Shown here: positions 4,136-21,243 of the stretch, piece by piece
Layout of the letters: each line of letters opens with the position of its first letter
Position numbering within the stretch: position 1 is the first letter of the stretch
Source: Sphingomonas sp. Leaf20
Lineage (GTDB): Bacteria > Pseudomonadota > Alphaproteobacteria > Sphingomonadales > Sphingomonadaceae
Direction: 5' to 3'
DNA length: 64,000 nucleotides
NCBI RefSeq assembly: GCF_001421535.1
Contig: NZ_LMKN01000001.1
Location: 1,116,001 to 1,180,000 of the forward strand
Translations under genes and position numbers: made by a program
The notes under the pieces: generated by a model
What the model was told of the DNA's origin: nothing
What the model saw: the letters and a program-made list of their open reading frames with translations, nothing else
Databases searched by the model: none

Positions 4136-4657
4136 TTACGCGGCAATCAGCCCATGGTTCCGCAACGCGGCCAAAATGGCGTCGATCGTGACCCTCGCGG
4201 AGTCGTCGACGACGCTGCCGCCGACGACGTCCGCGATCGCCGCGCCGCGGGCCTGCACCACCGGAACGCCGCCGATCACGATTCGCGCACCCGCGATGTC
4301 CGCCCCCGCCCAGGCGGTGCCGTCGAAGCGCAGCAGCATCGCCCGATCCTCGCACCACGCGGTCATCCCGGCGCGCGGCACCGCGAACCGCCAGCCGCCC
4401 GCGGTCCAGCCCGCGATCGCCTGCGCCTGCCCGGTCCAGTCGCCGCCCGGCGCCGCACCGACGATCCAGCACGCCCCCGGCACCGGATCGACGGGCGGCA
4501 CGCTCACCCCCGCCGCGACGACGCTCGCGTTGAGCACGAGGTCGAGCAGCGTCAGCGCCTCGTTGTGCACCATCTCCTTCTGCGCCTGTCCGGGTTGCAG
4601 CAGCGGCAGCCCCAGCCGCGCGCTGCGATCCCCCGTCAATCCCGTGTCGATCGTCAT
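4136..4657 (-). CDS. DUF2793 protein, end gene of the GTA cluster
   Basis: A 173-residue protein of the DUF2793 type, usually the last tail-associated gene in sphingomonad phage-like clusters. The N-terminus (LGLPLLQPGQAQKEM, HNEALTLLD) is the recognisable family signature. The rest is beta-rich, and a C-terminal segment VTIDAILAALRNHGL suggests an oligomerisation helix. Its ATG overlaps the preceding tail gene by 4 bp (ATGA) and has a GGGAG ribosome site, so it is translationally coupled to the cluster. A role as tail fibre or receptor-binding accessory is inferred from position only. Confidence 0.8.
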   Translation of the reverse strand: MTIDTGLTGDRSARLGLPLLQPGQAQKEMVHNEALTLLDLVLNASVVAAGVSVPPVDPVPGACWIVGAAPGGDWTGQAQAIAGWTAGGWRFAVPRAGMTAWCEDRAMLLRFDGTAWAGADIAGARIVIGGVPVVQARGAAIADVVGGSVVDDSARVTIDAILAALRNHGLIAA

Positions 4658-6897
4658 GTCGCCTCTCCCGCTGCTGCCACCATGATCCGCGCCGGTGCGG
4701 ACAATCCGAAAAGCCCGCGCTGCCGCACCTCGACCGCGACCGGCCCCGCGCTGCGCTCCGCGCCGGTGACGGTCACGCTGGATACGCTCGTCTCGACCGT
4801 CCGCACCGCGCCCGTCGCGGACACGATCCGCACGACATACACTTCGGCGTCCTCGCCCAGCGGCACGTCGCCGCCATCGATCCACCGCCACCCCGCACGA
4901 CTGCGCCGGATCCAGCGGACCGCGGCGTCGCCATTGCCGGCAAGCGCGACGCGGAGCCCGACGGGCGACGGCGGCAGCACCGACCGGCCGGCCAGCACGC
5001 AGCGTGCCTCGACCGGCTCGGTATCGCCGACCCCCGACGCGAGCACGCGCACCGTCTGCCCGATCGCCGCGACGGGCAGGTCGATCGTCCGCATCGCATC
5101 CGCCTCGATCAGCACGAACGCGTCGCCCGGCGCCTGCGTGCCGATCGCCGCCTCGGTCCCGCGGCGCCCGCGCCACAGCCGCGTCAGCCGCCACCGCCCC
5201 GCGCCGACCGGGTCCGCACGCCCGAACTGGATCAGCTCGTCCCCCGCCAGCGCGAGGTTGCGCCCCGCGTCGAGCCCCGCATCGTCGGCATCCGCGAGCA
5301 GCATGTCGGGCCGCGCGAGCACCACCTCGAACACCCCCGCGGCGTCGCACAGCAGCGCCCCGCGCGCCGCCGCGACCACCGCGATCCGCCCCATCGTCGC
5401 GGGCGCCGCGGTCGCACCCGCCGCGATCCAGCTCGCGCCGTCGTCGATCGAATAGAGCAAAGCCGCCTGCCGCCAGCCGGCACCGCTGCCGGCCGCCGCC
5501 ACCGTCAGCCGCGGCGCCACGAGCGGTGCGTCCTCGAGCCCGGGCGTCTCGAACGCCGCCAGCCGGCTCGCGCCGATCACCGCATCGACCGCCGCCGCGA
5601 CGCGCCCGCTGCTGCCCGCGACCGCGACCGGCGCGATCTCGACCGGCGTCAGCACCAGCGTCGTGACCATCGCCTCGACCATCGACTCGACGATCCGCCA
5701 GATCCCCGGCTCGGGCACGCCCGCCGCATCGGCGATCCGCACCACCGACCCCGGCGTCCGCGCCAGCCCACCCGGCCCCAGCCGCACCGTCCGCCGCACG
5801 CGCTCCGCCTCGGCGCGCGCCAGCACCGCCGCCGCGATCGTCTTGGCCGCGCCCGCCGACAGCACCGCGGCCAGTGCGATCCGCTCGTCGCGCCCGCCCG
5901 GCCCCGCGCCAGCCCGCCGCACGCGCTGCAACCCCGTCTGATAGTCGCGCGCGGCGTCATAATAGCCGATCGTCATCGTCCGCGGCACGCTGTCGCTCGC
6001 CGCGACCGCGCGCACCTTCATATCCGTACCCCGCCCATCCGCGCTCACGCCCGCCCTCACGCCGGCATCGACGATCACCGGCAGGTCGCCCGCCGCGCTC
6101 GTGGGATCGCACAGCGTCAGCGCGGTTCCGTCGGATCCCGGCGCGAACCAGCCGCCCGCCGCCTGCGCCAGCGTCGTAAGCACCGCGCCGACGCTGCCGC
6201 CCGCCACCGCAAACCCGTCGAGCGTCATCGCCGCCTCGCCCGCATGCTCCCCCGTTCCTTCCGTGACCTCCGCCGCGACCGCCCGCGCGATCGTCGCCAC
6301 CCCCACCGCGCCCGCGTCGGCGATCACCTCGAAGGTCAGCGACGGGATCCGGTTGCCGTACGCCGCCAGCGCCATCTGCTCGAACACCACATAGGCGCAG
6401 CCGCGATAGGCGGGCGAAACCCCCGCGCCCTCCGCCGCCGCGATCAGCGGGTCGACCGCCTGCGTCTCGCCGCCCGGATGCAGCCGGAACCCGGTCGCGG
6501 TCTTGAAGTCGCCGCCCGCGCCGCGCAGCAGCTTGCCCTCCGCCCAGATCCGCCCGACGCGCAGCACGCGCCGCGCCGACAGCAGCACCGCGAACGACGC
6601 GGCATAGCTGTACGTCGACACGCTCGGCTGCCCCTTGCCGCCGCCGCTGCGCGACCGCGTCTCGATCAGGTCGCTCGCCCAGATCACCGTCCCCGCGACG
6701 CGCATCGTCCCGAACAGCGCGGGGATCTGGCTGCCATAGGACGAGGTCTGCACCGCCAGTTCGGTCAGCCGTGGCCCCTCGCGCCGTCCCGGTCGCAGCA
6801 CCAGCCCGTCGACCGACCGCCCGATCAGCGCGCCGATCGCACCGCCGATCGGCCCGCCCACCGCGCTCCCGACCGCGGTCAACACCAGTGTCGCCAT
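4654..6897 (-). CDS. GTA tail-tip protein, gp15-like, short form
   Basis: Corresponds by position and sequence style to the large tail-tip protein encoded at the end of GTA clusters. The N-terminus (VLTAVGSAVGGPIGGAIGALIG) is a Gly-rich hydrophobic segment typical of this family. The segment around residues 45-110 (SYGSQIPALFGTMRVAG...IWASDLIE) and the middle part look like the phage-tail_3 type region. At 747 aa it is far shorter than the roughly 1300-aa Rhodobacter capsulatus homologue, and no TIM-barrel-like segment is seen. A comparable domain instead precedes the gp12-like domain at 8365-10662. It sits 1 bp after the NlpC/P60 gene and overlaps the DUF2793 gene by 4 bp. Confidence 0.85.
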   Translation of the reverse strand: MATLVLTAVGSAVGGPIGGAIGALIGRSVDGLVLRPGRREGPRLTELAVQTSSYGSQIPALFGTMRVAGTVIWASDLIETRSRSGGGKGQPSVSTYSYAASFAVLLSARRVLRVGRIWAEGKLLRGAGGDFKTATGFRLHPGGETQAVDPLIAAAEGAGVSPAYRGCAYVVFEQMALAAYGNRIPSLTFEVIADAGAVGVATIARAVAAEVTEGTGEHAGEAAMTLDGFAVAGGSVGAVLTTLAQAAGGWFAPGSDGTALTLCDPTSAAGDLPVIVDAGVRAGVSADGRGTDMKVRAVAASDSVPRTMTIGYYDAARDYQTGLQRVRRAGAGPGGRDERIALAAVLSAGAAKTIAAAVLARAEAERVRRTVRLGPGGLARTPGSVVRIADAAGVPEPGIWRIVESMVEAMVTTLVLTPVEIAPVAVAGSSGRVAAAVDAVIGASRLAAFETPGLEDAPLVAPRLTVAAAGSGAGWRQAALLYSIDDGASWIAAGATAAPATMGRIAVVAAARGALLCDAAGVFEVVLARPDMLLADADDAGLDAGRNLALAGDELIQFGRADPVGAGRWRLTRLWRGRRGTEAAIGTQAPGDAFVLIEADAMRTIDLPVAAIGQTVRVLASGVGDTEPVEARCVLAGRSVLPPSPVGLRVALAGNGDAAVRWIRRSRAGWRWIDGGDVPLGEDAEVYVVRIVSATGAVRTVETSVSSVTVTGAERSAGPVAVEVRQRGLFGLSAPARIMVAAAGEAT

Positions 6898-6898
6898 G

Positions 6899-7324
6899 TC
6901 ATGCCTCCCCCGATTGCACGGCCGGACGCCAGCATCCCAGCACCGGCTCCGCGACCGGTCCCGGCCGCTCGACCACGCGTTTCAGCACCGCATCCGCGTG
7001 GACGATCCCGCGCGCGCTGCGCACCGCGAAGTGCAGCTGCGCCGGCCCCGTCCGCAGCATCAGCACGTCGCCCGCCGCGCCCGCATCCCCACCCGCCCGC
7101 CGCGCCAGCACCCGATCGAGCCACGCCGCCACCGCGACCGGATCGCCGCCCCGCAGCGCATAGCCCGTCGGCACCGCGACGACGCACCCGCCCGCACGCA
7201 GCGCCAGCGCGACCAGCCCGACACAGTCGAGCCCCGTCGCCGCCGCGCGGCCGTGCAACCGGAACCGGCTCCCGACCGCGGCGAGCGCGGCGCGCTCGAC
7301 GGCGACGCCCGTCTCCGCGCTCAT
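6899..7324 (-). CDS. NlpC/P60 peptidoglycan peptidase, GTA gp14-like
   Basis: A 141-residue cysteine peptidase expected to open the recipient cell wall during particle entry. The catalytic cysteine is C34 in GLDCVGLVAL and the histidine is H98 in AQLHFAV. A following GIVHAD segment fits the NlpC/P60 fold. Length matches stand-alone tail peptidases of GTAs. The start codon overlaps the stop of the DUF2163 gene by 4 bp (ATGA), and the gp15-like gene follows after 1 bp, so the three tail-tip genes form a coupled block without repeats. Confidence 0.9.
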   Translation of the reverse strand: MSAETGVAVERAALAAVGSRFRLHGRAAATGLDCVGLVALALRAGGCVVAVPTGYALRGGDPVAVAAWLDRVLARRAGGDAGAAGDVLMLRTGPAQLHFAVRSARGIVHADAVLKRVVERPGPVAEPVLGCWRPAVQSGEA

Positions 7325-8130
7325 GCGCCGGGATACCGCGTCAGCAGGTCGATCCCCGGCAGATACGGCTCACCGCGAAAATTCACCGCGTTCGCAAACC
7401 GGGTCGCGCACGTCGCAAGGCTCTTGTCGCACCCCTCGACCAGCTCGACGAGCGTCCCCGCCGCGACCGCGAACGCGGGCGCGCGCTGCAGCGTCACGCT
7501 GGCACCCGCCGACGCGACGACCGCGCTCTCCAGCCCGCCGTTCGCGCCGCCGAACCAGCGCAGCACACCGCCACCCCAGCCCCCCGCGATCGGCTCCGCG
7601 GTGTCGAGCGTCACGTCGCGTCCCGCGACCGCGACCACCCTGGCGAACCGCCGCCGCGCCGCCATCGCCACGCGGCACCGCGCATCGCCCAGCTCGGCGC
7701 GACATTCGGGCGACGTCTCCTCGACCACCGCGCGGTCGAGCGCGGCACCCGCCCCGCGCAATTCGGCGGTAAAGCCGCCCTCCGTCAGCTCGACCGCGCC
7801 GATCTCTCCCCCGCCCAGCGCGAGTGCCGCGCCGCCCGGATCGGTCCAGTCGACCGCGAACACCGTCACCCGCGCGCCGTCCCACCGCCCCGCGAGCAGA
7901 TCGCGCGCGCCGATCGCCGCCGCACTCAGCGCGCCCGTAACGTCCATCGTGTCCGCCTCGAGCGCACTCCCCCGCTGGATCGCCGACGGCGTCATCCCCG
8001 GCGCCGCGCGGTGGACGAGCCCGTCCACCACCAGGTCGCGGTCGTGCGCGGTCAACCCCACCGCCACCCCGTCGCGCCGCTCCACCCGCCAGCACACCGC
8101 GATCGTCGCCAGCTCACCATCGAGAACCAT
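7321..8130 (-). CDS. DUF2163 tail hub protein, GTA gp13-like
   Basis: A 269-residue member of the DUF2163 (BR0599-like) family, the hub protein of GTA tails. The family N-terminus is seen in CWRVERRDGVAVGLTAHDRDL, and the C-terminal half holds ETSPECRAELGDARCRV and EGCDKSLATCATRFANAVNF with regularly spaced cysteines. The start at 8130 is chosen because GGAG lies 7 bp upstream; the frame continues upstream but only through a family A repeat. The gene is separated from gp12 by 234 bp that hold that repeat. Confidence 0.9.
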   Translation of the reverse strand: MVLDGELATIAVCWRVERRDGVAVGLTAHDRDLVVDGLVHRAAPGMTPSAIQRGSALEADTMDVTGALSAAAIGARDLLAGRWDGARVTVFAVDWTDPGGAALALGGGEIGAVELTEGGFTAELRGAGAALDRAVVEETSPECRAELGDARCRVAMAARRRFARVVAVAGRDVTLDTAEPIAGGWGGGVLRWFGGANGGLESAVVASAGASVTLQRAPAFAVAAGTLVELVEGCDKSLATCATRFANAVNFRGEPYLPGIDLLTRYPGA

Positions 8131-8238
8131 GTGATTTCTCCGAAAGGAGGACCCAGACACGTACGGGGCCGACGGCAAAGGAGCCGCAGCCCCCCACCCC
8201 GCCACCGTCACCCCCACACCCGCGCACCCGCCTACCCC

Positions 8239-8320
8239 CGTCATCCTGACGAAAGTCAGGACCCAGAGCCGCACAGGACGACGCTCTTGGCTCTGGATCC
8301 TGACTTTCGTCAGGATGACG
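8239..8320. repeat. Family A palindromic element between GTA genes 12 and 13
   Basis: A complete two-arm copy lies between the fused gp12-like gene and the DUF2163 gene. The remaining 108 bp before the DUF2163 start hold its ribosome site and nothing else that I recognise. Confidence 0.9.
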
Positions 8321-8364
8321 ACGAGGAAGCACCGGATCCCGCACGCCGGCCGCAAGAAACCGAC

Positions 8365-10662
8365 CTATCCCTCGCGCACCTCGACCAAAGGCACAGACCC
8401 CGCGACCCCCGCCAGAAACGTCGCGCGCGCCACGCTCAGCCGGTCCTCGGCAAACCGCACCGGCACGTCGAACGCGAACCCGGCGGTCACCACCACCCCG
8501 ACCGCGGGCGCGGTATCGAGCACCACCCACCCCCCGGCCTCGACCGAAAAGCCCGCAGTCGCGACCCCGCCGACCGCGACCGACACGCTGCCCGCCACCG
8601 GCCGCGTGATCCGCCGCGACGCCGCACCATAATATTTGACCAGCGCGAACCGCCGCTGCACCCCGTCGCCGTCGCCGACGCCGATCCGCTGCCCGACCGC
8701 GTCCGCATCGAACGGATCGCGCAGCCGGAACCCGCGCGCCGGCCCCATCCGCGCGCGAAAGAACGCCAGCAGCACCGCGATATCCGCCTCGCTCCGCAAC
8801 CCCGGTCCGACGTCATAACTCGTCCGCGCCTCCGCCCAGGCGGCGTTGCGCGTCTCCGCACCCCCCGCACTCGTCAGGATCGCGGTGGAGAATCCCGGCG
8901 CCACCTCCGCCTCGCGCCCCAGCTCGAGCGGGAACAGCACGTCGTCGAACGCGTCCACATCATCCTCCCCATCGGTCTCGAACTGCACGAACCCGTCGCG
9001 CATCACCTGCGGCAGCGCCCAGACGAAAATCTCCGCCACGCCGCGCCCCCGCGCCACGCGCGCCGCCGCCGCGATCCGCCCCCATTCGGCGACCTGCTGT
9101 GCCCCGCGCCCGGGCGTCAGCACGAACCCCGACAGATAATGCTGCCGTTCGACCGGATAGCCCAGCCGCGCGCCGACCAGCGCCACCGCGTCCGCCGACG
9201 ACGCGCTGTCCCCCGCGGTCACCCAGTCATAGTCCTCGAGCTGCAGCACATCGAACGCCGGCCACGCCCAGCCCAGCGGCATGTTCGCCCGCTTCGCCTC
9301 GGGCGCCGCGGCGTCGAGCACCGTCGGCAGATAGGTGAGCAGATGCGCCACGCACCCGCCCGCCCCCGCCTCCTGCCGCGCCGCCGCCACCAAAGCCGCG
9401 GTCGACGCCGCCAGACACGCCCCCGCCGCGTCCAGCGTCGCGATCTCGTCCGCGCTCCTCGCCCCCCGGATGCTCGCCATCGCCACCGGCGCGAACGCCG
9501 CGACCGCGCTCGCATCATAGAGGCACGGCCGCCCGTCGGGCATCACCCACCACCACGGCTCGCCGACCTGGAACCGCGCGCGCAGCCCCGCCGCGACCCC
9601 GATCGCCACGAACGCGCGCGCCACCGCCTGCAGATACGCCATCGCCCCGCCATGCGCCGGCGACAACAGCGTCGAGGGCGGCGCCCACCCCGTCAGCGCC
9701 GGCGCGCCATCCGCCGCGCGCTGTTTCCAGTCGTTCCAGCAATGCGCGTCGAACAGCTCGTAGCTCAGCGACCAGATCACGTCATAGCCAAGCGCCCCCG
9801 CCCGCCGCGCAAAATCGCGGTGCCACGCAGCGCACGCCGCGTTGAGCACGCCCCCCGCCAGCGACACGTAAAACCCGCCGCCCAGCGCCTCGAGCCGGAA
9901 ATAATGGCTCATCCCGACATAATGGACGATGCTCCCGCGGTACCCCAAGTGCAGCGCATTGCGCAGCAACCGCGCCGGCGTCAGGTTGTAGCTGTCGTCA
10001 TAGCCGCCCGCGATCCGAAGCGCGTGTTCGGGCACCACCGCCTCGCCGATCGCCAGCACCGCGCCCGGCCCGTCGCACGCGATCGCGCTCCACTCGACCC
10101 AGCCCTCGTGCATCGCCGCCAGCAGCCCGCTCCCCGCGCCATAACCCGGCGGCACCAGCGACACGAACATCCGGTCGATATCCCCCGCCCAGACGGGATC
10201 GCTGTCCGCGGGCAGGTCATACCCGCCGACCAGCGCCGCGAAATCGAGCGTCACCACCGCGTCCTCGGGCGTCCCGACCGGATAATTCCACAGCCGCACA
10301 TACCAGGCGCGCGCTCGCCCCGCGGCGTCGCGCCCCTCGATCGTCAGCGTCGGGCCATGGATCGCGTCGAGCGCGATCACACCCCCCGACCGCCACCGAA
10401 AGGACAGCCGACAGTCGCGAAAGTCGCGCGCGGTCTCATACGCCAGCAACGGATGATCGAACCGGTCCTCCGCCTCCCAGATCAGCCCGGCGAGATCGTC
10501 CTGCTTGTAGAACACCGCATCGACCCGCAGCGACTCCGGCCCCGTGGTCACCACCGACGCCATCATCGGCCGCGGAAAATCCACCGTCCAGAACCGCGCA
10601 TCGAACCGCGACACCAAGCCCCCCATTTGCCCCGTCCGCCCCGAACACAGCCAATGCCCCAT
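8365..10662 (-). CDS. Fused TIM-barrel-like and DUF2460 distal tail protein, GTA gp12-like
   Basis: The C-terminal part (about residues 572-762) is a DUF2460 domain: AFDDVLFPLELGREAEVAPG, RNAAWAEAR, YDVGPGLRSEADIAVLLAFF and RGFRLRDPFDADA. This is the distal tail protein domain, which alone is about 210 aa in R. capsulatus. Here it follows about 570 extra residues. That part looks like a glycoside-hydrolase-like TIM barrel, with acidic residues E302 in SLSYELFD and E368 in VGEPWWW as possible active-site remnants; the fold is inferred. The start at 10662 (MGHWLCSG) has GGAG 6 bp upstream; the upstream 38 codons run through a family B repeat. The product is 765 aa. In sphingomonads such proteins are often called non-contractile tail sheath proteins. 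Confidence 0.85.
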   Translation of the reverse strand: MGHWLCSGRTGQMGGLVSRFDARFWTVDFPRPMMASVVTTGPESLRVDAVFYKQDDLAGLIWEAEDRFDHPLLAYETARDFRDCRLSFRWRSGGVIALDAIHGPTLTIEGRDAAGRARAWYVRLWNYPVGTPEDAVVTLDFAALVGGYDLPADSDPVWAGDIDRMFVSLVPPGYGAGSGLLAAMHEGWVEWSAIACDGPGAVLAIGEAVVPEHALRIAGGYDDSYNLTPARLLRNALHLGYRGSIVHYVGMSHYFRLEALGGGFYVSLAGGVLNAACAAWHRDFARRAGALGYDVIWSLSYELFDAHCWNDWKQRAADGAPALTGWAPPSTLLSPAHGGAMAYLQAVARAFVAIGVAAGLRARFQVGEPWWWVMPDGRPCLYDASAVAAFAPVAMASIRGARSADEIATLDAAGACLAASTAALVAAARQEAGAGGCVAHLLTYLPTVLDAAAPEAKRANMPLGWAWPAFDVLQLEDYDWVTAGDSASSADAVALVGARLGYPVERQHYLSGFVLTPGRGAQQVAEWGRIAAAARVARGRGVAEIFVWALPQVMRDGFVQFETDGEDDVDAFDDVLFPLELGREAEVAPGFSTAILTSAGGAETRNAAWAEARTSYDVGPGLRSEADIAVLLAFFRARMGPARGFRLRDPFDADAVGQRIGVGDGDGVQRRFALVKYYGAASRRITRPVAGSVSVAVGGVATAGFSVEAGGWVVLDTAPAVGVVVTAGFAFDVPVRFAEDRLSVARATFLAGVAGSVPLVEVREG

Positions 10663-10710
10663 GATGATCTCCAGATTCCAAGAAGAACGACAAGGGCAAG
10701 CCAGCCGAAA

Positions 10711-10783
10711 AACCCCTCTCCCCCCGGGGGAGAGGGAGGGGCCCGCGCGCGCTCGCGCGTGGGAGGGTGAGGGCAAGTGAGAC
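10711..10783 (-). repeat. Family B terminator-like element before GTA gene 12
   Basis: On the transcribed strand CCCTCTCCCCC pairs with GGGGGGAGAGGG, followed by TTTTT. A second stem (CACGCGCGAGCGCGCGCG) precedes it. It fills most of the 128-bp gap between the tape measure stop and the gp12-like start. Confidence 0.9.
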
Positions 10784-10790
10784 TCCCCAA

Positions 10791-11357: not shown

Positions 11358-11544
11358 CGGGAAAAGCCTCCTGCAACCGCGCGATCGCCGCCGCATCGGG
11401 CGGCGTCGGCGTGTCTCCCATCATCGCGGCGACCACCGCCCCCTGCTCGGCGGGCGTCGCGCGCCAGAACACATCCGGCGCCCAACCCAGCACCGCGCCC
11501 GCAAACCCCGCCAGCCGCGCGGCGCTCGCTGCAAAGCGCGTCAT
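11350..11544 (-). CDS. Tail assembly chaperone, GTA gp10.1-like
   Basis: A 64-residue protein of the rcc01693-type tail assembly chaperone family (Phage_TAC_6). Typical features are FAASAARLAGFAGAVLGW, the W-R-A-T-P-A-E segment and a short acidic C-terminus. A GTG at 11547 could also serve as start, but the ATG at 11544 shares its A with the TGA of the preceding gene (TGATG), the usual coupling arrangement. It lies between gp10 and the tape measure gene, where many tailed phages place paired tail chaperones. Confidence 0.85.
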   Translation of the reverse strand: MTRFAASAARLAGFAGAVLGWAPDVFWRATPAEQGAVVAAMMGDTPTPPDAAAIARLQEAFPDG

Positions 11545-11858: not shown

Positions 11859-11871
11859 AAAATATCTCCAA

Positions 11872-11939
11872 AACCCCTCTCCCCCAGGGGGAGAGGGAGG
11901 GGCCCACGCAAAGCGTGGGAGGGTGAGGGCAAGTGAGGC
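11872..11939 (-). repeat. Family B element before GTA gene 10
   Basis: Minus-strand reading: CACGCTTTGCGTG stem, then CCCTCTCCCCCTGGGGGAGAGGG hairpin with TTTT, ending about 13 bp before the gp10 start codon region and just before its ribosome site. Confidence 0.9.
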
Positions 11940-11964
11940 CAAGAACACCGCCCCCCCGCGCGCC

Positions 11965-12141
11965 CGTCATCCTGACGAAAGTCAGGACCCAGAGCCCCAC
12001 ACACCGCGCCGCCCCCCCCCCGTCATCCTGACGAAAGTCAGGATCCAGAGCTGCAAAGGACAACGCTCGTGACCCTGGATCCTGACTTTCGTCAGGATGA
12101 CGGAAATGGGTCAGGATGACGGAGGGGGGTCAGGATGACAG
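11965..12141. repeat. Family A one-and-a-half copy with degenerate tail
   Basis: A half copy at 11965-11996 is followed by a complete element at 12021-12102. Two further partial repeats of GTCAGGATGAC run to about 12141. With the family B element it occupies the 11859-12186 gap; no gene is seen there. Confidence 0.88.
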
Positions 12142-12186
12142 GACCGGAGGTGGCCGAAGATCAACGGATCCCCCGACCCGCAACCC

Positions 12187-12594
12187 TCACCCCGCCACCA
12201 CCGCCCCCGAACTCTCGAGACTCAGCGTGTAGGATCGCTCCCCATTGAAATCCCCGGCATAATCCAGCCGCGACACGAGGAACCGGCCGGTCATCGTATC
12301 GCCCCCCTCGAACGCCAGCCGGTAATCGTCGAGCACCCCGGTCAGCGCGCTCGCCTTGATCCGCAGCTCCGCCGCCGACCCCGTGAACACCCCCGCCCCC
12401 GACACCGAGACGCTGCGCACCCCCGCCCCCGACAGCAGCTGCCGCCAGCCGCCCGAATCCTTCGTCGTCACCACGATCGCCTCGCCGTTCACCGACATCT
12501 GCGTCGTCCGCAGCCCCGCCACCGTCGCATAGACGGGCGTCGCCGCGCCGTTCCCGACCTTCAACAGGAACGCGCTCCCCTTCTCCACCGCCAT
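12187..12594 (-). CDS. Major tail protein, TP901-1 type, GTA gp9-like
   Basis: A 135-residue tube-forming tail protein. The sequence matches the TP901-1 major tail family: EKGSAFLLKVGNG, an early beta-strand with TVAGLRTTQMSVNGE, TTKDSGGWRQLL and a C-terminal YTLSLESSG. The ATG at 12594 has a GGGAG ribosome site, 14 bp after the DUF3168 gene stop. It is expected to be the most abundant tail component. It is followed by a 328-bp block of A and B repeats, the longest repeat-filled gap on the tail side. Confidence 0.92.
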   Translation of the reverse strand: MAVEKGSAFLLKVGNGAATPVYATVAGLRTTQMSVNGEAIVVTTKDSGGWRQLLSGAGVRSVSVSGAGVFTGSAAELRIKASALTGVLDDYRLAFEGGDTMTGRFLVSRLDYAGDFNGERSYTLSLESSGAVVAG

Positions 12595-12608
12595 GTCCGT
12601 CTCCCTCT

Positions 12609-12992
12609 TCAATCCTCGCGGTACATCCGCACCAGATATTCGCTCGTCCCCCGCCACCGCTCGCCGACGCGCAGCACGCGCGACCGCACCAGCTGCGCGC
12701 GCACCAGCCGCCACCCGTCGGACAGCAGCGGATCGAGCCCCTCGACCGCCGCCTCCGCCGCGCCCAGCGCCGCGCGCAGCCGCACCGGCCGCTCGCCGCC
12801 ATCGTGCAAGGTCACCACCAGCCGCCCCTCGCGCCCGCGCCACGTCGCACTGCTCCAGTCGCCCAGCACCGGATCCTCGACGACCGCATGGGGGATTGCC
12901 GCACGCACCGGCGGCGCATCGAACACCGCGCAGTCGAGCGCCGCCTGCAACTGAGCGACCACCCCCGCCTGCAACACCGCCCCCGCACTCAC
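12609..12992 (-). CDS. DUF3168 tail terminator, GTA gp8-like
   Basis: A 127-residue DUF3168 protein that caps the tail tube in GTAs. Typical features are the N-terminal LQAGVVAQLQAAL, the segment IPHAVVEDPVLGDWSSATW and the C-terminal GTSEYLVRMYRED. The GTG start at 12992 overlaps the connector gene stop by 4 bp (GTGA) and has GAGG 8 bp upstream. It directly follows the connector gene, so there is no room for a head-closure (gp7) gene between them. Confidence 0.88.
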   Translation of the reverse strand: MSAGAVLQAGVVAQLQAALDCAVFDAPPVRAAIPHAVVEDPVLGDWSSATWRGREGRLVVTLHDGGERPVRLRAALGAAEAAVEGLDPLLSDGWRLVRAQLVRSRVLRVGERWRGTSEYLVRMYRED

Positions 12993-13336
12993 GCCGTCAC
13001 CTCGGGACTGAGCCGCATCCGCCGATACGGCCGCCACAACGCCGCCACCGCCGCCGGCGGCAACGCATCGCTCTCGCGGTGATCGAACAGATGCGCCGCC
13101 AGCATCGCCACGCCCTGCGCCACCGGCGCCGGCACCGCGTCCCAGGTCTCCGCCGCGCCGTCCCCCGCCACCCGCGCGACGATCGCCCCGCCGACGAACG
13201 CCTCGCAAAGCAGGATCGCCGTCGCACAGACCCGCCCGAGCAACGCGTCCTCCGCACTCCCCTCCAGCCGCAACACCGCCCGCACGGCCACCACCGCGTC
13301 CGCGACAACGGCCACCGGCACCCCCTGCTCACCCAT
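12989..13336 (-). CDS. Head-tail connector, GTA gp6-like
   Basis: A 115-residue all-helical protein of the phage head-tail connector (gp6/QLRG-like) family. The pattern VAVRAVLRLEGSAEDALLGRV followed by an AILLCEAFVG helix and a C-terminal LWRPYRRMRL fits the family. The ATG at 13336 has GGGAG 8 bp upstream. It is preceded by a 116-bp gap carrying a family B repeat that separates it from the capsid gene, and it overlaps the DUF3168 gene by 4 bp. Confidence 0.8.
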   Translation of the reverse strand: MGEQGVPVAVVADAVVAVRAVLRLEGSAEDALLGRVCATAILLCEAFVGGAIVARVAGDGAAETWDAVPAPVAQGVAMLAAHLFDHRESDALPPAAVAALWRPYRRMRLSPEVTA

Positions 13337-13351
13337 AGGAATCTCCCAAAA

Positions 13352-13430
13352 AACCCCTCTCCCCCGCAGGGGAGAGGGAGGGGCCCACGCGCCCTTGCGC
13401 GTGGGAGGGTGAGGGCAAGCGAGGCTCGAA
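13352..13430 (-). repeat. Family B element between capsid and connector genes
   Basis: The terminator-like hairpin reads CCCTCTCCCCTGCGGGGGAGAGG then TTTTTT on the coding strand. It lies directly ahead of the connector ribosome site. Confidence 0.9.
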
Positions 13431-13452
13431 ACCCCCACCCCCTCACACCCCA

Positions 13453-14445
13453 TCAGCTCACCGAAAACTTCATCAGCTTGATCGCCTCCGAATTCGTCAC
13501 GCACCCGCCGACGCGCTTGGTCGCGTAGAAATTGACGAACGGCTTGTTCGAGTACGGATCCCGCAGGATCACCGTCTCCGCGCGCTCCGCGATCAGATAC
13601 CCCGCTTTGAAGTTCCCGAACGCGATTCCCAGCGCGTTTGCCGCGATGTCCGGCATGTCCTCCGCCTCGATCACCGGATAGCCGAGCAACGTCGCCGGCT
13701 GCCCCGCCGCCAGCGAAGGCGCCCACACGAACGCCCCGTCGCTCGTCTTGAACTTCCTGATCCGCGCCAGCGTGCTCGCATTCATGACAAAGCTCGCCCC
13801 CTGCCGATACGGCGCGCGCAGCGCCTGGACGAGGTCGATCAGCCGCTCCTGCGGGCTCGCCGAGAAATCCCCCGCGGTCCCGGAGGCCAGATATTGCAGC
13901 GTCCCGAACGCCCGCGTCCCGTCCGCGGTCGCCGCGGTCGGCTGCGTCAGGAACCCCTTGGGCCGCCCGCTGCCCGATCCGCCGACGAACGCCGCACCCT
14001 CGGCCTTGGCGAATTCCATCGCGATCTCGCCCGCCAGCCACGCCTCGACGTCGAACGCCGCATCGTCGAGCATCGCCTGGCTCGCCGCCGGATTGGCATA
14101 GAGCTCGCCGGTCGGCGGCACGATCTCGACGAACACCGGCGTCGCCGTCTCGGGCCGCGCCGCATTCTCCGCCGCCCAGCCGGACGGCGTGCCGCCCGTC
14201 GTGACCAGCTTGCGATACCCCGCCGAGCCCACCTTCACGACATTGGCGATTGAGCGGATCGGCGAGATCCCCTTCAGCACCGCATCGATCTGCGCATCCA
14301 CCTCGCGCGGCACCGCATAGCCGCCCGCATCGCCCGAGACCCCGGTAAACGCCTTCATCTCGATCGTCGCACCGCTCCGCACGAACCCCGCAAACGCGCC
14401 CGAAGGCGCCGCCCCCTCCAGCATCGGCCGATCCATCACGCTCAT
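13453..14445 (-). CDS. Major capsid protein, HK97 fold, GTA gp5-like
   Basis: A 330-residue HK97-type capsid protein. Recognisable parts include the spine and A-domain segments GGYAVPREVDAQIDAVL, SPIRSIANVVKVGS, the GWAAENAARPET segment, GELYANPAASQAMLDD, DVEAWLAGEIAMEFAKAEG and the C-terminal RVGGCVTNSEAIKLMKFS. No long N-terminal scaffold region is present, which fits GTA and short HK97-type capsids. The ATG at 14445 has GGGAG 6 bp upstream; an earlier ATG at 14451 touches that site. It is flanked on both sides by palindromic repeats and is expected to be the most abundant product of the cluster. Confidence 0.95.
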   Translation of the reverse strand: MSVMDRPMLEGAAPSGAFAGFVRSGATIEMKAFTGVSGDAGGYAVPREVDAQIDAVLKGISPIRSIANVVKVGSAGYRKLVTTGGTPSGWAAENAARPETATPVFVEIVPPTGELYANPAASQAMLDDAAFDVEAWLAGEIAMEFAKAEGAAFVGGSGSGRPKGFLTQPTAATADGTRAFGTLQYLASGTAGDFSASPQERLIDLVQALRAPYRQGASFVMNASTLARIRKFKTSDGAFVWAPSLAAGQPATLLGYPVIEAEDMPDIAANALGIAFGNFKAGYLIAERAETVILRDPYSNKPFVNFYATKRVGGCVTNSEAIKLMKFSVS

Positions 14446-14500
14446 GTCCATCTCCCTGCCAGAAACAAAAAAAGGCGCCCCGAAGGACGCCCGAAACTCA

Positions 14501-14575
14501 AAACCCCTCTCCCCCCGGGGGAGAGGGAGGGGCCCACGCAAAGCGTGGGAGGGTGAGGGCACGTGAGGCTCGAAG
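14501..14575 (-). repeat. Family B element before the capsid gene
   Basis: Same orientation as transcription: CACGCTTTGCGTG stem, then CCCTCTCCCCCGGGGGGAGAGGG and TTTTGAG. It ends about 55 bp before the capsid start. A small second hairpin (GGCGTCCTTCGGGGCGCC, then TTTTTTTG) lies between, at about 14471-14492. Confidence 0.9.
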
Positions 14576-14594
14576 CCTCACCCCCACCCCCACG

Positions 14595-14769
14595 CGTCAT
14601 CCTGACGAAAGTCAGGATCCAGAGCCCCAAGCGCCGTCCCCACCCCCCGCGTCATCCTGACGAAAGTCAGGACCCAGAGCCCCGAGCGCCGTCCCCTACG
14701 GCTCTGGATCCTGACTTTCGTCAGGATGACGGGAATAGGTCAGGATGACGGGAATGAGTCAGGATGACC
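14595..14769. repeat. Family A one-and-a-half copy with tail, protease-capsid gap
   Basis: A half copy (14595-14626) precedes a full element (14653-14735). Two more partial GTCAGGATGAC repeats follow. The last one contributes the stop codon of the prohead protease gene. The 313-bp protease-capsid gap holds nothing but repeats and the small hairpin next to the capsid start. Confidence 0.88.
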
Positions 14770-15187
14770 GAAGCGCGTCAGCACGGCGCCCCACCACCTC
14801 CACCCGAGCCAACCCCTGCATAGGCACCGCCACCAGACTCACCTCGACCAGCGCCACCCCCAGCACCTCCCGCCGAGCCCCCTGCCGAACCCGCACCGCC
14901 CGATACCCGACCGACAACCCAGCCACCGCCCCCGACCGCACCAGCCCCGCAAGCTCGGGATCCTCGACCACCCCCTCGACGCGCAACCCCCGCGCATCCT
15001 CCGCAACCGACGCAAGCACCCCCACCGCACCCCCACGATGCTGCCACAGAAGCGGCACCACCCCGGCCCCGGCAAACGCCCCCCGCCGCATCACGTCCCC
15101 CGCCCGGTCGACCACGTCGAACACCGCCGCATACCCCGCAAACGCCACCCCGCCCCGTTCGTCCCGAGTGGCGTATCGAGGGATCAC
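14759..15187 (-). CDS. Prohead protease, HK97 type (U35/S78), GTA gp4-like
   Basis: A 142-residue maturation protease that trims the capsid precursor. Family features are AFAGYAAVFDVVDRAGDVM and RGAF near the N-terminus, followed by the catalytic histidine region PLLWQHRGG and the later GLSVGYRA and LVEVSLVAVPM segments holding the serine. The GTG start at 15187 overlaps the DUF6127 gene stop by 4 bp. The final Ser-Ser and the stop are encoded by a family A repeat remnant. Confidence 0.9.
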   Translation of the reverse strand: MIPRYATRDERGGVAFAGYAAVFDVVDRAGDVMRRGAFAGAGVVPLLWQHRGGAVGVLASVAEDARGLRVEGVVEDPELAGLVRSGAVAGLSVGYRAVRVRQGARREVLGVALVEVSLVAVPMQGLARVEVVGRRADALRSS

Positions 15188-15489
15188 TTCAGCCACGCCG
15201 CAAACCCCAGCTTCACCGCCAGCCCCGCGAGCATCAGCGCCACGAACAGCCGCGCGATCCACCCCGCGACCGCCTTCCACACCGACCGTTTCGCATCGCG
15301 CCACGCCGCCAGCAGCTCGCGCAGCTCCGCCACGTCACCCCGCGCCCGCTCGTCGCTCAGCCCCAGCCGCGCCAGCGCGCGCGTCGCGCCCAGCTCGCCC
15401 GCCTCCTCCGCGATCGCGCGCAGCGTCACCAGGTCCGCCCCCCGCTCCGCCCCCTGCGCCATCAGCTGCGCCAAGACTTGGCCATCCAT
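15184..15489 (-). CDS. DUF6127-like small membrane protein of the GTA cluster
   Basis: A 101-residue protein in the position of the small gene between portal and protease in GTA clusters; sphingomonad examples are named DUF6127. The N-terminal two-thirds are helical and charged (EEAGELGATRALARLGL, DVAELRELLAAWRDAKRS). One membrane segment (ARLFVALMLAGLAVKLGFAA) ends the protein. The ATG shares its A with the TGA of the portal gene and has a GGAGG ribosome site. Its function is unknown; the topology suggests a membrane-tethered assembly helper. Confidence 0.8.
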   Translation of the reverse strand: MDGQVLAQLMAQGAERGADLVTLRAIAEEAGELGATRALARLGLSDERARGDVAELRELLAAWRDAKRSVWKAVAGWIARLFVALMLAGLAVKLGFAAWLK

Positions 15490-16610
15490 CAGACCCCCTC
15501 CTTCACATCGAGCATCGCGCGCTTCTCCGCATCGCTCAGGAACGTCGCCGCGCTGACCATGCCCCACAGCCGCTCGCGGTCCTCGACCAGCGCCGGCACC
15601 CGGTCGAGATCGACCCGCAGCGCCGCCCCCTCGAACCAGCCCGACAGTCCCTGCGCTATCCCCGTCAGCACGCTCGTCGCCAGCGGCAGGATCGCCAGCC
15701 GCCACAGCGCCCGGTTCGCCTCGCGGTAATTGGCATAGCTATTGTCCCCCGGCAGCCCGAGCAGCATCGGCGGCACCCCGAACGCCAGCGCGATCTCGCG
15801 CGCCGCCGCGCTCCGCGTCCCCGCAAAATCCATGTCCGCGGGCGTCAGGCTCAGCGCCTGCCATTTCAGCCCGCCCTCGAGCAGCATCGGCCGCCCCGCA
15901 TTCCCGCTCCCCGCAAACGACGCCTCGAGCTCGCTCTTCAGCCGCGCGAACTGGTCCGCCGACAGCGCCGACCCGTCGCCGGGATCATAGACCAAGGCCC
16001 CCGAGGGGCGCGCCGCATTGTCGAGCAACGCCGTGTTCCACCGCGCCGCCGCATTATGGATCCCGACCGCCGCCGCCGCCGCGCCCAGGCACCCCAGCCC
16101 GTAATGATCGTCGACCGGATGAAACGCCTTCAGGTGGATCACCTGCGGCCGCACCGGATCCGCCGACAGCCGCGTCACCCGCGCGCCGACCGCATAGCGA
16201 TACGCCGCCGGCCACCCGCCCGCATCCGCCTCGACGCTCACCCGCTCGGGCCGCAGCGCATAGAGCTCGGCCGCGCCCCCGTCGGCATCGCGCAGCACCT
16301 GGACATAGGCATTGCCGTGGAGCAGCAGCTGCGCCGCCACCGTCTCGATCAGCATCTGCCCCCCCGACCGCGCGGTGACGAGCGCGACCAGCGCCGGATC
16401 CGACCCGTCGAGCGGCGCCGACCCGACCCCTTCGACGACCAGCTTCACCGCGCGCTGCGCCACCGCATTCCCCAGATACGCCTCGCGCACCTGCGCCTCA
16501 TACCCCCGCGCCCCCGCGACACCGCCCGCCCCCGCCCAGCCAAGACTCCCCGCCCCCGACAAAGCCGGCCGCGCGCCCTCCCGCCCGGACTTCCACCCGA
16601 ACAACCCCAT
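15489..16610 (-). CDS. Portal protein, HK97 type, GTA gp3-like
   Basis: A 373-residue portal protein forming the ring through which DNA is packaged. Family features are AYLGNAVAQRAVKLVVEGV, LLLHGNAYVQVLRDADG, ELYALRPERVSVE, VIHLKAFHPVDDHYGL, ALDLL-like NTALLDN, and the C-terminal FGVPPMLLGLPGDNSYANYREANRA. The ATG at 16610 has a GGGAGGG ribosome site 4 bp upstream; the longer frame includes a family B repeat and is rejected. It is separated from the large terminase by a 392-bp block of four repeats and is coupled to the DUF6127 gene downstream. Confidence 0.94.
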   Translation of the reverse strand: MGLFGWKSGREGARPALSGAGSLGWAGAGGVAGARGYEAQVREAYLGNAVAQRAVKLVVEGVGSAPLDGSDPALVALVTARSGGQMLIETVAAQLLLHGNAYVQVLRDADGGAAELYALRPERVSVEADAGGWPAAYRYAVGARVTRLSADPVRPQVIHLKAFHPVDDHYGLGCLGAAAAAVGIHNAAARWNTALLDNAARPSGALVYDPGDGSALSADQFARLKSELEASFAGSGNAGRPMLLEGGLKWQALSLTPADMDFAGTRSAAAREIALAFGVPPMLLGLPGDNSYANYREANRALWRLAILPLATSVLTGIAQGLSGWFEGAALRVDLDRVPALVEDRERLWGMVSAATFLSDAEKRAMLDVKEGV

Positions 16611-16636
16611 AATACCCTCCCGAAAAACCATAACCA

Positions 16637-16992
16637 AAACCCCTCTCCCCCCGGGGGAGAGGGAGGGGCCCACGCAAAGCGTGGGAGGGTGAGGGCACGT
16701 GAGGCTCGAACCCCCACCCCCACCCGTCATCCTGACGAAAGTCAGGACCCAGAGCCAAGCAGCGCCACCCCCCGCAACCCTGGATCCTGACTTTCGTCAG
16801 GATGACGGAAGGGGAACCACGAACTCCCTCTCCCCTCGGGGGAGAGGGAGGGGCCCGCGCGAAGCGTGGGAGGGTGAGGGCACGTGAGGCTCGAACCCCC
16901 ACCCCACCCGTCATCCTGACGAAAGTCAGGACCCAGAGCCAAGCAGCCCCACCCCCCGCAACCCTGGATCCTGACCTTCGTCAGGATGACGG
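16637..16992. repeat. Alternating B-A-B-A repeat block between terminase and portal
   Basis: Order in window coordinates: B 16637-16710, A 16725-16807, B 16823-16895, A 16909-16992. The two B-A pairs start 186 bp apart, so this looks like a duplication of a B-A unit. The 16611-17002 gap otherwise holds only the portal ribosome site. Confidence 0.9.
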
Positions 16993-17002
16993 AAGGGGGA
17001 CC

Positions 17003-18340
17003 TCAAACCACCCGAACCCCCACCTCAACCCGCCGCCGCAAGCACAATTCCGTCAGCGCCCACACCAGCGCATCCGCCCGATCCGGCGAGCGCCCGGGCC
17101 CCACATACCCCCCGCTCACCAGCCCGCAGAGCTCGTCCTCGAGCGCCGGAAACGCCCCGACATGAAAGACCCGCCGCCCCTCGTACAAGGTCGCCACCGG
17201 CTCCGCCCGCGCGACCTTGCCGCGGCTCGCATGGACCAGCCGCACCGGCAGCCCGCAGTCCGCCGCCATCAGCACGCTGCGCACCATCTCCCCGCCCTGG
17301 TTGCACTCGGCGACCACGCGGTCCGCGCCATGCCGCGCCGCACAGTCCGCCACCGCGCGCGCCCAGCCTTCGGGCGACAACCCCGAAACGCTCGCATCCT
17401 CGAGCACATAGGCAAGATCGTCCGCCCCCAGCGCGACGCACACGATCCCGCACGCATCGCCGCTGGTCCCCGCAGGCGGATCGACCCCCACGACGACACG
17501 CACCAAAGCGGGCAGCCCGAAATCCGCCCCGCACCGCTGCCGCTCGAGCAAGTCGCGCGTCCACAGCGCCCCCTCGACATCGTCGATCAGCTCGCCGTCC
17601 AGCTCCTGCCGGCCCAGCCGCGTTCCCGCATAGGTCTGGGTCATCGCCGCCACGAACGACGCGGGCAGGTACGGATTCTCCCCCGTCCCCCCGCGCGATT
17701 CATACAGCCCCGGCAACGCCAGCAGCCGCCGCATCAGCGGCACCGGCCGCGGCGTCGTCGTCACCAGCACGCGCGGCCGCTCGCCGATCCGCAAGCCCAT
17801 CATCAGATTGTCCCAGGTCGCGTCGCCGTACCGCCACTTGGCCAGCTCGTCGCACCACGCCGCATGATGCTCGGGCCCGCGCAGTTTCTCGGGGGCTTCG
17901 GCCGAATAGACGAACGCGCGCGCGCCGCTGTCGAACACGAACTCGCCCGCGTCGCGTCGCCAGCGATAGGTCTCGCCCGCCTGCGCCACCGCGATCAGCC
18001 CGCTTTCGCCCTCGACCATCACCTTGCGCACGTCGTCCGCGGTCCCGCCGACCATCGCGATCCGCGCGCCCGGCGTCGCGCGCGCGACCGCGCTCACCCA
18101 TTCGGCGCCTGCGCGCGTCTTGCCGAACCCGCGCCCCGCGCGGATCAGCCAGACATGCCAGTCCGCCTCGGGCTCGCGCTGCCCCGGCATCGCCCAGATC
18201 GCCCAGCTCTCGTGAAACGCGCGCAGCTCGGGCTCGGGCAGCGCGCGCAGCACCGCCAGCCGATCCGCCGCCGACAGCCGCGCCAGCCGCACGAGCAGCC
18301 CCCGGTCGAACAGGACCGGCGCCATCCCCCCCGCGCTCAC
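17003..18340 (-). CDS. Terminase large subunit, GTA gp2-like
   Basis: The 445-residue ATPase-nuclease that cuts and pumps DNA into the head. The Walker A-type motif AGRGFGKT is at about residues 68-75 and Walker B with catalytic Glu at WCDELAKW (about 162-169). The C-terminal RNase H-like nuclease begins at VGVDPPAG, with further acidic residues in VAECNQGGEMV and SPDRADALVWA. The GTG start at 18340 overlaps the small-subunit gene stop by 4 bp and has GGAGG 7 bp upstream. In GTAs this enzyme packages random host DNA headfuls. Confidence 0.95.
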   Translation of the reverse strand: MSAGGMAPVLFDRGLLVRLARLSAADRLAVLRALPEPELRAFHESWAIWAMPGQREPEADWHVWLIRAGRGFGKTRAGAEWVSAVARATPGARIAMVGGTADDVRKVMVEGESGLIAVAQAGETYRWRRDAGEFVFDSGARAFVYSAEAPEKLRGPEHHAAWCDELAKWRYGDATWDNLMMGLRIGERPRVLVTTTPRPVPLMRRLLALPGLYESRGGTGENPYLPASFVAAMTQTYAGTRLGRQELDGELIDDVEGALWTRDLLERQRCGADFGLPALVRVVVGVDPPAGTSGDACGIVCVALGADDLAYVLEDASVSGLSPEGWARAVADCAARHGADRVVAECNQGGEMVRSVLMAADCGLPVRLVHASRGKVARAEPVATLYEGRRVFHVGAFPALEDELCGLVSGGYVGPGRSPDRADALVWALTELCLRRRVEVGVRVV

Positions 18341-18873
18341 GACCCGTCCTCCGCCGCACCCGCCTGCCCGCGCCGCGCGATCGCGTCGAGCCTGGCGACC
18401 AGCGCCGCCTCGACCTCGGCGATCGTCGCGCGCTTGCACGACGGCCCGCGCCCGCCCGCCGCCGCATCGCGCCGCCGGAACCCCAGCGCCTGCACCGCCA
18501 CCCGCGGATCGAAATGCGCCCCGCGCGACTCCGCCGCCGCATCCCCGTCAGCGACCCTGTCAGCGACCCTGGCAGCTTCCGCCTCAGCCTCCCCCTCGGC
18601 CTCCCCCAGCGCATAGGCGAGCAACCGCGCCTCGAGCGTCTCGTACGCCGCCTCGATCGCCGCCGCCCAGTCCGCCGCGAACACCGCATCGCGCGCCTTG
18701 AGCGCATGCGCCCCGCGCGGCGCCATCCCGACCGCGCGCGCCGAAGCCGCGATGTTGCACGTCCCTGCCAGATGCTCGAGGAACGCCGCGCGCTTGGCGG
18801 GCGTCCAGCCGCCCCTGGCGGCCTTGCGCACCTGCAACCGGCCCCCAGCTTTCCCGCCCGCCCCCGCTCCCAT
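18337..18873 (-). CDS. Terminase small subunit-like DNA-packaging protein, GTA gp1-like
   Basis: A 178-residue basic protein at the head of the GTA cluster. The N-terminal part (GWTPAKRAAFLEHLAGTCNI, AASARAVGMAPRGAHAL) looks like the helix-turn-helix DNA-binding domain of small terminases. A central helix (AAIEAAYETLEARLLAYALG) could drive ring assembly. The C-terminal half is Ala-rich and acidic then basic. It overlaps the large subunit gene by 4 bp. Identity rests on position and the HTH-like segment rather than on a strong family match. Confidence 0.75.
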   Translation of the reverse strand: MGAGAGGKAGGRLQVRKAARGGWTPAKRAAFLEHLAGTCNIAASARAVGMAPRGAHALKARDAVFAADWAAAIEAAYETLEARLLAYALGEAEGEAEAEAARVADRVADGDAAAESRGAHFDPRVAVQALGFRRRDAAAGGRGPSCKRATIAEVEAALVARLDAIARRGQAGAAEDGS

Positions 18874-21125: not shown

Positions 21126-21143
21126 CCCGTCATCCCCTTCTCC

Positions 21144-21226: not shown

Positions 21227-21243
21227 ACCCCACCGAGGGCCCC

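Follow-up and report, generated by a model that had tools for sequence, protein, structure and literature searches.

A 64,000-nucleotide (nt) window of the genome of Sphingomonas sp. Leaf20 (NZ_LMKN01000001.1, positions 1,116,001-1,180,000; assembly GCF_001421535.1) was analysed, in which positions 4136-18873 hold a gene cluster resembling RcGTA, the gene transfer agent (GTA) of Rhodobacter capsulatus. Seventeen minus-strand genes, all for head or tail proteins, run from terminase to tail tip, with a small terminase-like gene opening the cluster and a DUF2793 gene ending it. All 17 reading frames are open; six pairs of neighbouring genes are separated by 116-392 nt, and the other ten overlap or lie at most 14 nt apart. 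The proteins were named by Pfam, NCBIfam and PHROGs models, and all coordinates are collected in Table 1. An earlier annotation made from the DNA letters, hereafter the sequence-only reading, had described sixteen consecutive genes from terminase to tail tip; the order and the strand were as described, the outer limits given for the cluster are exact, and the count becomes 17 because the 65-amino acid (aa) g10.1, of the TAC family, sits between g10 and the tape measure. The sizes given there for the capsid (330 aa) and the tape measure (188 aa) are correct, and the word near-complete was a fair one, since g7 is the sole gene of the RcGTA series without a counterpart. The stand-alone NlpC/P60 peptidase (g14) is weakly suggested by an NCBIfam peptidoglycan hydrolase model (E 3.6e-4) and by one solved NlpC/P60 chain (E 0.0074), and no Pfam or PHROG family matched it. 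That reading had not mentioned the lack of g7, an internal deletion in g6, a g12 of 765 aa against the ~210 expected, a short g15 and several terminator-like hairpins.

The Dit protein of RcGTA has 210 residues, and g12 carries about 570 extra ones at its N-terminus. Three domains were recognised in g12, namely NCTSP_N (residues 17-206, E 4e-97), TIM-barrel_NCTSP (211-558, E 6e-165) and DUF2460/Dit (571-763, E 8.6e-62); by this domain order, g12 is an N4-type 'non-contractile tail sheath' module fused to the usual Dit domain. Among the relative loci with g12 (80 kept of 223 found) the protein is long in all the 79 readable frames, with 749-781 residues except in L032, at 637, where the frame is interrupted. 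The kept loci include Sphingomonas, Sphingobium, Stakelama, Hephaestia and Sphingorhabdus, and a genome scan with the g12 alignment returned at least 565 relatives. The nearest named ones (83-85%) are from S. faeni, Sphingomonas sp. UV9 and S. aerolata, and a 14,220-base contig of IMG/VR, listed as viral (L029), encodes a g12 that is 100% identical. When this genome and 40 relatives were compared, 27 of the 41 carried the g12 barrel (19 of 25 within the genus, 8 of 16 outside it), with an internal stop in one of the 28 matches. Parts of g12 are matched by 419 phage records, and among the matches listed the coverage is 80% in a single one, a 5.4-kb fragment without annotation; the other 39 of the 40 phage matches listed cover about 71%, from residue 15 or 20 to 559, corresponding to the sheath part without Dit. 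Two records with a Sphingomonas-like g12 at 72%, L201 (named Arthrobacter sp. TPD3018) and L233 (Microvirga sp. SRT01), are probably misnamed or contaminated.

The megatron, g15, aligns to residues 1-250 and 835-1303 of its RcGTA homologue, whose peripheral domain was assigned to 230-744 (PMC7296036; here and below, papers are cited for the passages of them that were searched). The NF048004 megatron equivalog scored 373 bits against a cut-off of 800, which places g15 outside the full-length class, and no match to GTA_TIM (PF13547) was found in this genome. In the AlphaFold model of g15 (pLDDT 84) an N-terminal helix (residues 2-33) is followed mostly by strands, with no barrel, and in structure it most resembles tail-tip proteins of phages JBD30, R4C and Chi and of RcGTA. 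The protein is short in 59 of 59 frames read (578-747 residues); in four GTA_TIM clusters that were opened g15 has 1253-1494 residues and g12 has 204-213. Moreover, of 289 alphaproteobacterial genomes 29 have GTA_TIM, 4 have the NCTSP barrel and none has both. The idea that the megatron barrel had moved into g12 was considered and rejected, as the comparison of profiles from 119 NCTSP and 26 megatron barrels gave a probability of 0.6%, which argues for replacement and not for transfer; the two barrels have no detectable relationship at the level of sequence. A third layout, with the hub g13 as fusion partner of the NCTSP module, a short g12 and a g15 of 772 or 751 residues, was found in L133 (9205-11904; genome G198, listed only as the same class) and L134 (9103-11997). 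The latter, with an 815-residue tape measure and long-tail phage genes, looks like a prophage, and its genome has the usual cluster as well.

In the g12 model (mean pLDDT 80) the barrel was placed at 212-565 and superposed on N4 gp64 with Z 28.7 and a root-mean-square deviation of 2.4 over 297 residues, at 27% identity; a sequence search also recovered N4 gp64 and gp65. After the phage chains, the structural neighbours listed are clan-A glycosidases, such as GH42 (1kwg, Z 23.1), PgaB (4p7l, Z 22.2) and beta-amylases, with Z of 20-23 over the three kinds, and the barrel fold of g12 is that of the clan-A glycoside hydrolase class. All 119 barrels compared, a set that includes hub-fused ones and contains some genes twice, have the same residues at E302, E368, E476 and W370-W372, and the three glutamates are also kept in N4 gp64. 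Two motifs rich in Trp and Glu, GEPWWW and QLEDYDW, are invariant in NCTSP barrels and look like a sugar site. In clan-A glycoside hydrolases the catalytic acid pair lies on strands 4 and 7; in the model, read without a residue-level superposition, E368 follows strand 4, and E302 and E476 stand at the ends of strands 3 and 6.

Since the Dit of RcGTA is a hexamer (PMC7296036), six modules per particle can be expected by homology. Thus, g12 would form the usual hexameric distal-tail ring, with six NCTSP_N and TIM-barrel modules placed around the tail tip, and this six-fold collar may bind, and possibly hydrolyse, polysaccharide at the surface of the recipient, DNA then being delivered through g13, g14 and g15 according to the RcGTA scheme. 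The tail of phage N4 is encircled by six gp64-gp65 heterodimers, of which gp65 is the receptor-binding partner (PMC12633501). In Rhodobacterales the tailspike TspA, which docks on tail tube, Dit and megatron, degrades biofilm, and GTA carriers outside this order were reported to be without it (PMC13420450). The collar could take the place of the unrelated megatron TIM barrel, whose function is stated to be unknown in the same 2026 preprint, and perhaps it also fills the role of the detachable TspA. Extended to Sphingomonadales GTAs in general, the proposal that a six-fold, N4-type, glycosidase-like ring both recognises and cuts the polysaccharide of the recipient, replacing megatron barrel and TspA, is tentative and, in our judgement, rather doubtful. 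Its counterpart, that the NCTSP module is purely structural, a scaffold or spacer of the tail tip neither binding nor cutting sugar, deserves serious consideration at well below even odds: the N4 homologues form a sheath round the tail, the passages of PMC12633501 report no activity for gp64 and the invariant residues may serve the fold, but the nearest listed neighbours after the phage chains are glycosidase-type barrels, the invariant motifs have the look described above, and gp65 binds its receptor from within that same sheath.

At the neck, g6 and g8 overlap by 4 nt and leave, therefore, no room for g7. Among 51 loci with a measurable g6-g8 gap, 4 have a frame of ~105 residues, called g7 by place and length without a model, 29 have 156-244 nt, with a frame of ~65-70 residues readable in some, and 18, including L029 of this species, have nothing. 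A published survey of 55 Sphingomonadales clusters counted g7 in 7, another gene in 22 and none in 26 (PMC9765227). The alignment with relatives showed that g6 is reduced from ~182 to 115 aa and lacks the middle beta domain between the helices. The RcGTA adaptor touches the capsid via its attachment domain, strands 1-5 (PMC7296036), and the longer g6 of L036 aligns with this adaptor, weakly (E 0.0023); on this comparison, g6 of the cluster has lost its capsid-attachment domain. By a coverage test 4 of 52 loci (L029, L031, L037 and L056) are without this domain, and the place of g7 is empty in all four; a first assignment of the domain to L029 and L031 was rejected, their alignments matching flanking residues only. 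A domain-less g6 is thus found in 4 of 18 loci with an empty g7 place and in 0 of 33 others (p 0.012, not corrected for kinship). As for the capsid, it starts at about residue 81 of the RcGTA capsid, with 23 residues preceding the shared part, despite the presence of a prohead protease gene.

The ratio of non-synonymous to synonymous substitutions (dN/dS, Nei-Gojobori, own script) was calculated for the cluster against six loci, without a significance test. Against the nearest full relative, L031, it was 0.03-0.54 over the 17 genes, and it remained below 1 for every available gene in all six comparisons, with a maximum of 0.84 (g8 against L037); these values support the view that the genes are kept by purifying selection. 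The synonymous divergence from L031 was uneven: it was 0.07-0.13 for portal, g3.5, capsid and g9, 0.3-0.4 for g12-g15 and 0.8 for the DUF2793 gene, a pattern that an exchange of parts of the cluster could have left.

These values bear on the idea that the cluster is a GTA remnant in decay, once functional, that is losing g7, the g6 attachment domain and part of the capsid N-terminus and no longer makes particles, which we consider unlikely. Besides the absent g7 and the shortened g6, it can be argued that 6 of 25 genomes of the genus are without the g12 module and that three of four loci of other families (L193, L194 and L196) keep the regulator and head genes, with no RcGTA-type tail genes found by our queries within the stretch read. 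On the other hand, all the frames are open and dN/dS stays below 1, also in the five comparisons other than L031. In HK97, gp6 works as a short adaptor made of helices only. Moreover, g7 is missing in most Sphingomonadales clusters, and the GTA genes of this order were found under strong selection by Kogay et al. (PMC9765227). The loci L193, L194, L195 and L196 belong to G029, G038, G032 and G025; L195 ends in the portal at a contig end, too early to tell, and in L194 a frame of 507 aa begins like a protease and contains a Phage-tail_3 domain.

Several products are related to RcGTA proteins of solved structure: the best solved-structure match is an RcGTA chain for the capsid (E 1e-89), for the Dit part of g12 (Rcc01695, E 2.2e-32) and for the megatron g15 (E 7.9e-42), and for g13 the hub of phage R4C came first (E 2.8e-43) and that of RcGTA second (E 5e-41). 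RcGTA-type clusters were defined by at least nine homologues of RcGTA head-tail genes with neighbours within 5 kb (PMC6821227); here 17 contiguous genes were found with a widest gap of 392 nt, some of the homologues being recognised by general phage families only. At the tail-fibre end the cluster adjoins an OmpA-family gene (window 2896-4017) on the same strand, and an OmpA neighbour (30-92% identity) occurs in nine of the ten relatives, from five families, whose flank was read (G003, G008, G010, G018, G024, G027, G030, G035 and G037); in the tenth, G283, the sole OmpA match is partial, at a contig end ~9 kb from the cluster and on the opposite strand, and it was not counted. This points to one ancestral position, as for a resident locus, and supports a cluster inherited with the chromosome. 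The upstream neighbour is a 3-hydroxyacyl-CoA dehydrogenase gene, whereas in other families DUF6456 and terminase genes lie side by side. Phage_integrase had 12 matches in the genome and none in the window, where models of serine integrase, replication, repressor and lysis genes were not searched throughout, and the window has no tRNA.

The sequence-only reading of an RcGTA-type GTA, and not a prophage, agrees with the RcGTA-related proteins, the absence of an integrase match from the window, the OmpA neighbour, dN/dS below 1 and the DUF6456 regulator described below, and the occurrence of such clusters in Sphingomonadales, which it had stated, is already published. Of the checks proposed with it, the search of the products against RcGTA returned the solved chains for capsid, Dit part of g12, g13 and g15, and that for a gafA homologue elsewhere in the genome returned one DUF6456 gene. 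That we are dealing with a prophage, intact or defective, of an RcGTA-like phage kind is very improbable, for even if phages such as R4C have the same proteins, IMG/VR lists such clusters as viral contigs and the hub-fused module of L134 lies in a region with long-tail phage genes, the window has no Phage_integrase match and no tRNA, the flank is conserved, the tape measure has 188 aa and, among the phage matches listed, 80% of g12 is covered by that one fragment.

The DUF6456 gene (G000:C1:1261171-1261548, E 1.2e-38) is on the strand of the cluster, at a distance of ~126 kb, and lies back to back with a divergent helix-turn-helix (HTH) gene; no GafY was found beside it. Homologues of GafA are annotated as DUF6456 or HTH proteins (PMC9638019; table of PMC9765227), and the GTA cluster of Caulobacter is controlled by a repressor, RogA, and an anti-terminator, GafZ (PMC9632790, PMC11150451). 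DUF6456 is present in 36 of the 41 genomes, our own included, and stands beside the terminase genes in 11 of the 11 other-family genomes that have it; 8 of these 11 genomes, and 15 of 20 loci from the genus, have an HTH gene next to it. Genomes with the g12 module have DUF6456 in 26 of 27 cases, against 10 of 14 without the module (Fisher p 0.04), and the adjacency of DUF6456 and terminase is stronger evidence than presence. A second Pfam domain was found neither in this protein nor in two longer DUF6456 proteins of other families. By its place and domain the HTH gene is presumably a RogA homologue, and a GafZ-like (DUF6456) activator, whose gene lies 126 kb away, probably switches the cluster on. 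The DUF6456 gene of L173 has an internal TGA; its genome, G011, belongs to the genus and has no g12 module.

Five of the six long gaps of the cluster contain an 11-base-pair hairpin followed by at least four T, at a distance of 15-58 nt from the next gene (portal, capsid, g6, g10 or g12), and shuffled gaps yield such a hairpin in 0-5%. In the gaps of relatives (60-1000 nt, at most 0.3 expected for each) a hairpin was present before the capsid in 16 of 25, the portal in 6 of 24, g6 in 7 of 31, g9 in 3 of 31, g10 in 3 of 12, g12 in 4 of 30 and g13 in 4 of 14, and in 0 of 32 g6-g8 gaps; the hairpin sequences differ between lineages. When the region was scanned for terminators in general, 9 sites were detected, a number that by itself does not differ significantly from the 6.0 +/- 2.2 of shuffled sequence. 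These elements could cause attenuation, lifted by the GafZ-like protein through anti-termination at hairpins within the cluster, as shown for Caulobacter GafZ. Generic sequence was considered as the nature of the hairpin repeats and rejected, given 53 sites in the genome and 6 in the cluster against 0.18 expected. At window 28369-28391 and 28486-28508 the CCCTCTCCCC-GGGGAGAGGG hairpin occurs twice more, as a close pair, a common arrangement elsewhere in the genome; the cluster copies are mostly single. A palindromic repeat with a GTCATCCTGACGAAAGTCAGGA core has 242 matches in the genome (at most 1 mismatch), at least 7 of them in the cluster against 0.8 expected.

Table 1. Genes, hairpins and repeats of the cluster, with positions in the window.
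Feature	Position	Strand	Basis or remark
g1, small terminase-like, 178 aa	18337..18873	-	PHROG 4044 terminase small subunit, E 4.9e-7
g2, large terminase, 440 aa	17003..18325	-	Terminase_6N + Terminase_6C
g3, portal, 373 aa	15489..16610	-	Phage_portal E 2.3e-70; TIGR01537
g3.5, 101 aa	15184..15489	-	DUF6127 E 3.4e-27
g4, prohead protease, 145 aa	14759..15196	-	Peptidase_S78
g5, HK97-type major capsid, 330 aa	13453..14445	-	TIGR01554; RcGTA Rcc01687 chain 6tb9 E 1e-89
g6, reduced head-tail adaptor, 115 aa	12989..13336	-	TIGR02215/TIGR01560; alignment with relatives; weak RcGTA adaptor match
g8, tail terminator, 127 aa	12609..12992	-	PF11367 E 2.7e-8
g9, tail tube, 135 aa	12187..12594	-	Phage_tail_2; TIGR02126
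g10, 104 aa	11544..11858	-	PF11836 'GTA-gp10' E 7.3e-21
g10.1, TAC / rcc01693 family, 65 aa	11350..11547	-	PF09550; TIGR02216 under its cut-off
g11, short tape measure, 188 aa	10791..11357	-	PHROG tape-measure families
g12 fusion, 765 aa	8365..10662	-	NCTSP_N + TIM-barrel_NCTSP + DUF2460/Dit
g13, hub, 269 aa	7321..8130	-	TIGR02218 'phage/gene transfer agent baseplate hub protein'; RcGTA hub 6tba_7A
g14, NlpC/P60-like tail peptidase, 141 aa	6899..7324	-	weak NlpC/P60 matches; position
g15, megatron without TIM-barrel domain, 747 aa	4654..6897	-	NF048004 373 bits; RcGTA megatron alignment; structure model
DUF2793 tail-fibre-like protein, 173 aa	4136..4657	-	PF10983; PHROG tail fibre families; siphophage R4C chain 8gtc_S E 2e-9
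Terminator-like hairpin before portal	16640..16664	-	
Terminator-like hairpin before capsid	14504..14528	-	
Second hairpin + T-run, 27 nt before capsid start	14473..14492	-	similar ones in some relatives
Terminator-like hairpin before g6	13354..13379	-	
Terminator-like hairpin before g10	11873..11898	-	
Terminator-like hairpin before g12	10713..10737	-	
GTCATCCTGACGAAAGTCAGGA-core repeat	183-2655, 8225-8333, 12007-12115, 14584-14744, 16714-16997, 21133-23321		

As a whole, these data are best explained, with a probability of roughly 0.7, by a resident RcGTA-type GTA that is kept by selection, is probably activated by a GafZ-like protein and carries a g12 collar at the tail tip; such a cluster would build a small tailed particle that packs host DNA. 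Several observations weigh against this explanation or parts of it. Only E368, of the three invariant glutamates, occupies what we take to be the acid/base place of clan A, and no acid was found in the barrel model where strand 7 ends and the nucleophile is usually placed; moreover, the literature passages searched report no enzyme activity for any NCTSP barrel and describe N4 gp64 as a sheath subunit (PMC12633501). The hub-type chains of JBD30 and Chi that match the g15 model (727 and 769 residues) contain no TIM barrel. It may therefore have been absent from g15 from the start, and loss of the barrel is not established as the direction of change. Both barrels are present in one draft genome among the 41, G012 (450 contigs, 85% complete), on separate contigs, the GTA_TIM contig having a short g12 and an RcGTA-type cluster; we take this as probable contamination. 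The missing g7, together with the domain-less g6, could mean decay. As DUF6456 occurs also where the g12 module is lacking (10 of 14 relatives), its mere presence is weak evidence, and the hairpins, which are part of a 53-site repeat and, outside the protease-capsid gap, are carried by a minority of the relatives' gaps, may be repeats and not regulation. Finally, for this organism the particle, its packaged DNA and the transfer are predictions from the genes.

RcGTA-like clusters in Sphingomonadales, the loss of g7 and gafA homologues are already known; according to PMC6821227, such an element had been described as a conserved prophage by Viswanathan et al. 2017. The g12 fusion, the g15 without TIM barrel, the loss of the g6 domain and the hairpins were not found in the literature passages searched, which did not include Viswanathan et al. 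2017 and the supplements. As regards the passage of GTAs through the capsule or biofilm of the recipient, much of the order shows a natural swap, in which the megatron is without its barrel and an unrelated barrel sits on the Dit; with this swap, what such barrels do can be tested directly in a tractable genus of soil and leaves. If the proposal is true, GTA-type baseplates would have gained a sugar-processing TIM barrel at least three times, in g15, in g12 and, in a phage-like relative, in the hub g13. On the practical side, GTA gene searches have used an overlap rule of 60% (or 40%) (PMC6821227); as only about one quarter of g12 is Dit, it would fail this rule with the RcGTA g12 query, and g12 of Sphingomonadales is a likely blind spot of length-filtered searches.

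Compared with known systems, the cluster is like RcGTA (PMC7296036, PMC13420450) in the order and kind of its head-tail genes and in its homologous capsid, Dit, hub and megatron; it is unlike RcGTA in the 570 residues of NCTSP added to g12, in the g15 without TIM barrel, in the lack of g7 and of the g6 attachment domain, in a capsid of 330 instead of 386 aa and in a DUF6456 protein without a second Pfam domain. With the RcGTA-like clusters of other Sphingomonadales (PMC6821227, PMC9765227) it shares the gene order, the g7 mostly missing or replaced and a known gafA/DUF6456 homologue. With the gp64/gp65 sheath of phage N4 (PMC12633501) it has in common NCTSP_N and the TIM barrel, and thus the domains of this class but not its separate sheath proteins, N4 having two of these around the tail and the cluster one fusion with a GTA Dit. 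Unlike the GTA of Caulobacter crescentus (RogA, GafY, GafZ and IHF; PMC9632790, PMC11150451), no GafY was found beside the DUF6456 gene, whereas the GafZ-type DUF6456 regulator, the divergent HTH gene and the terminator-like elements within the cluster are alike in the two systems.

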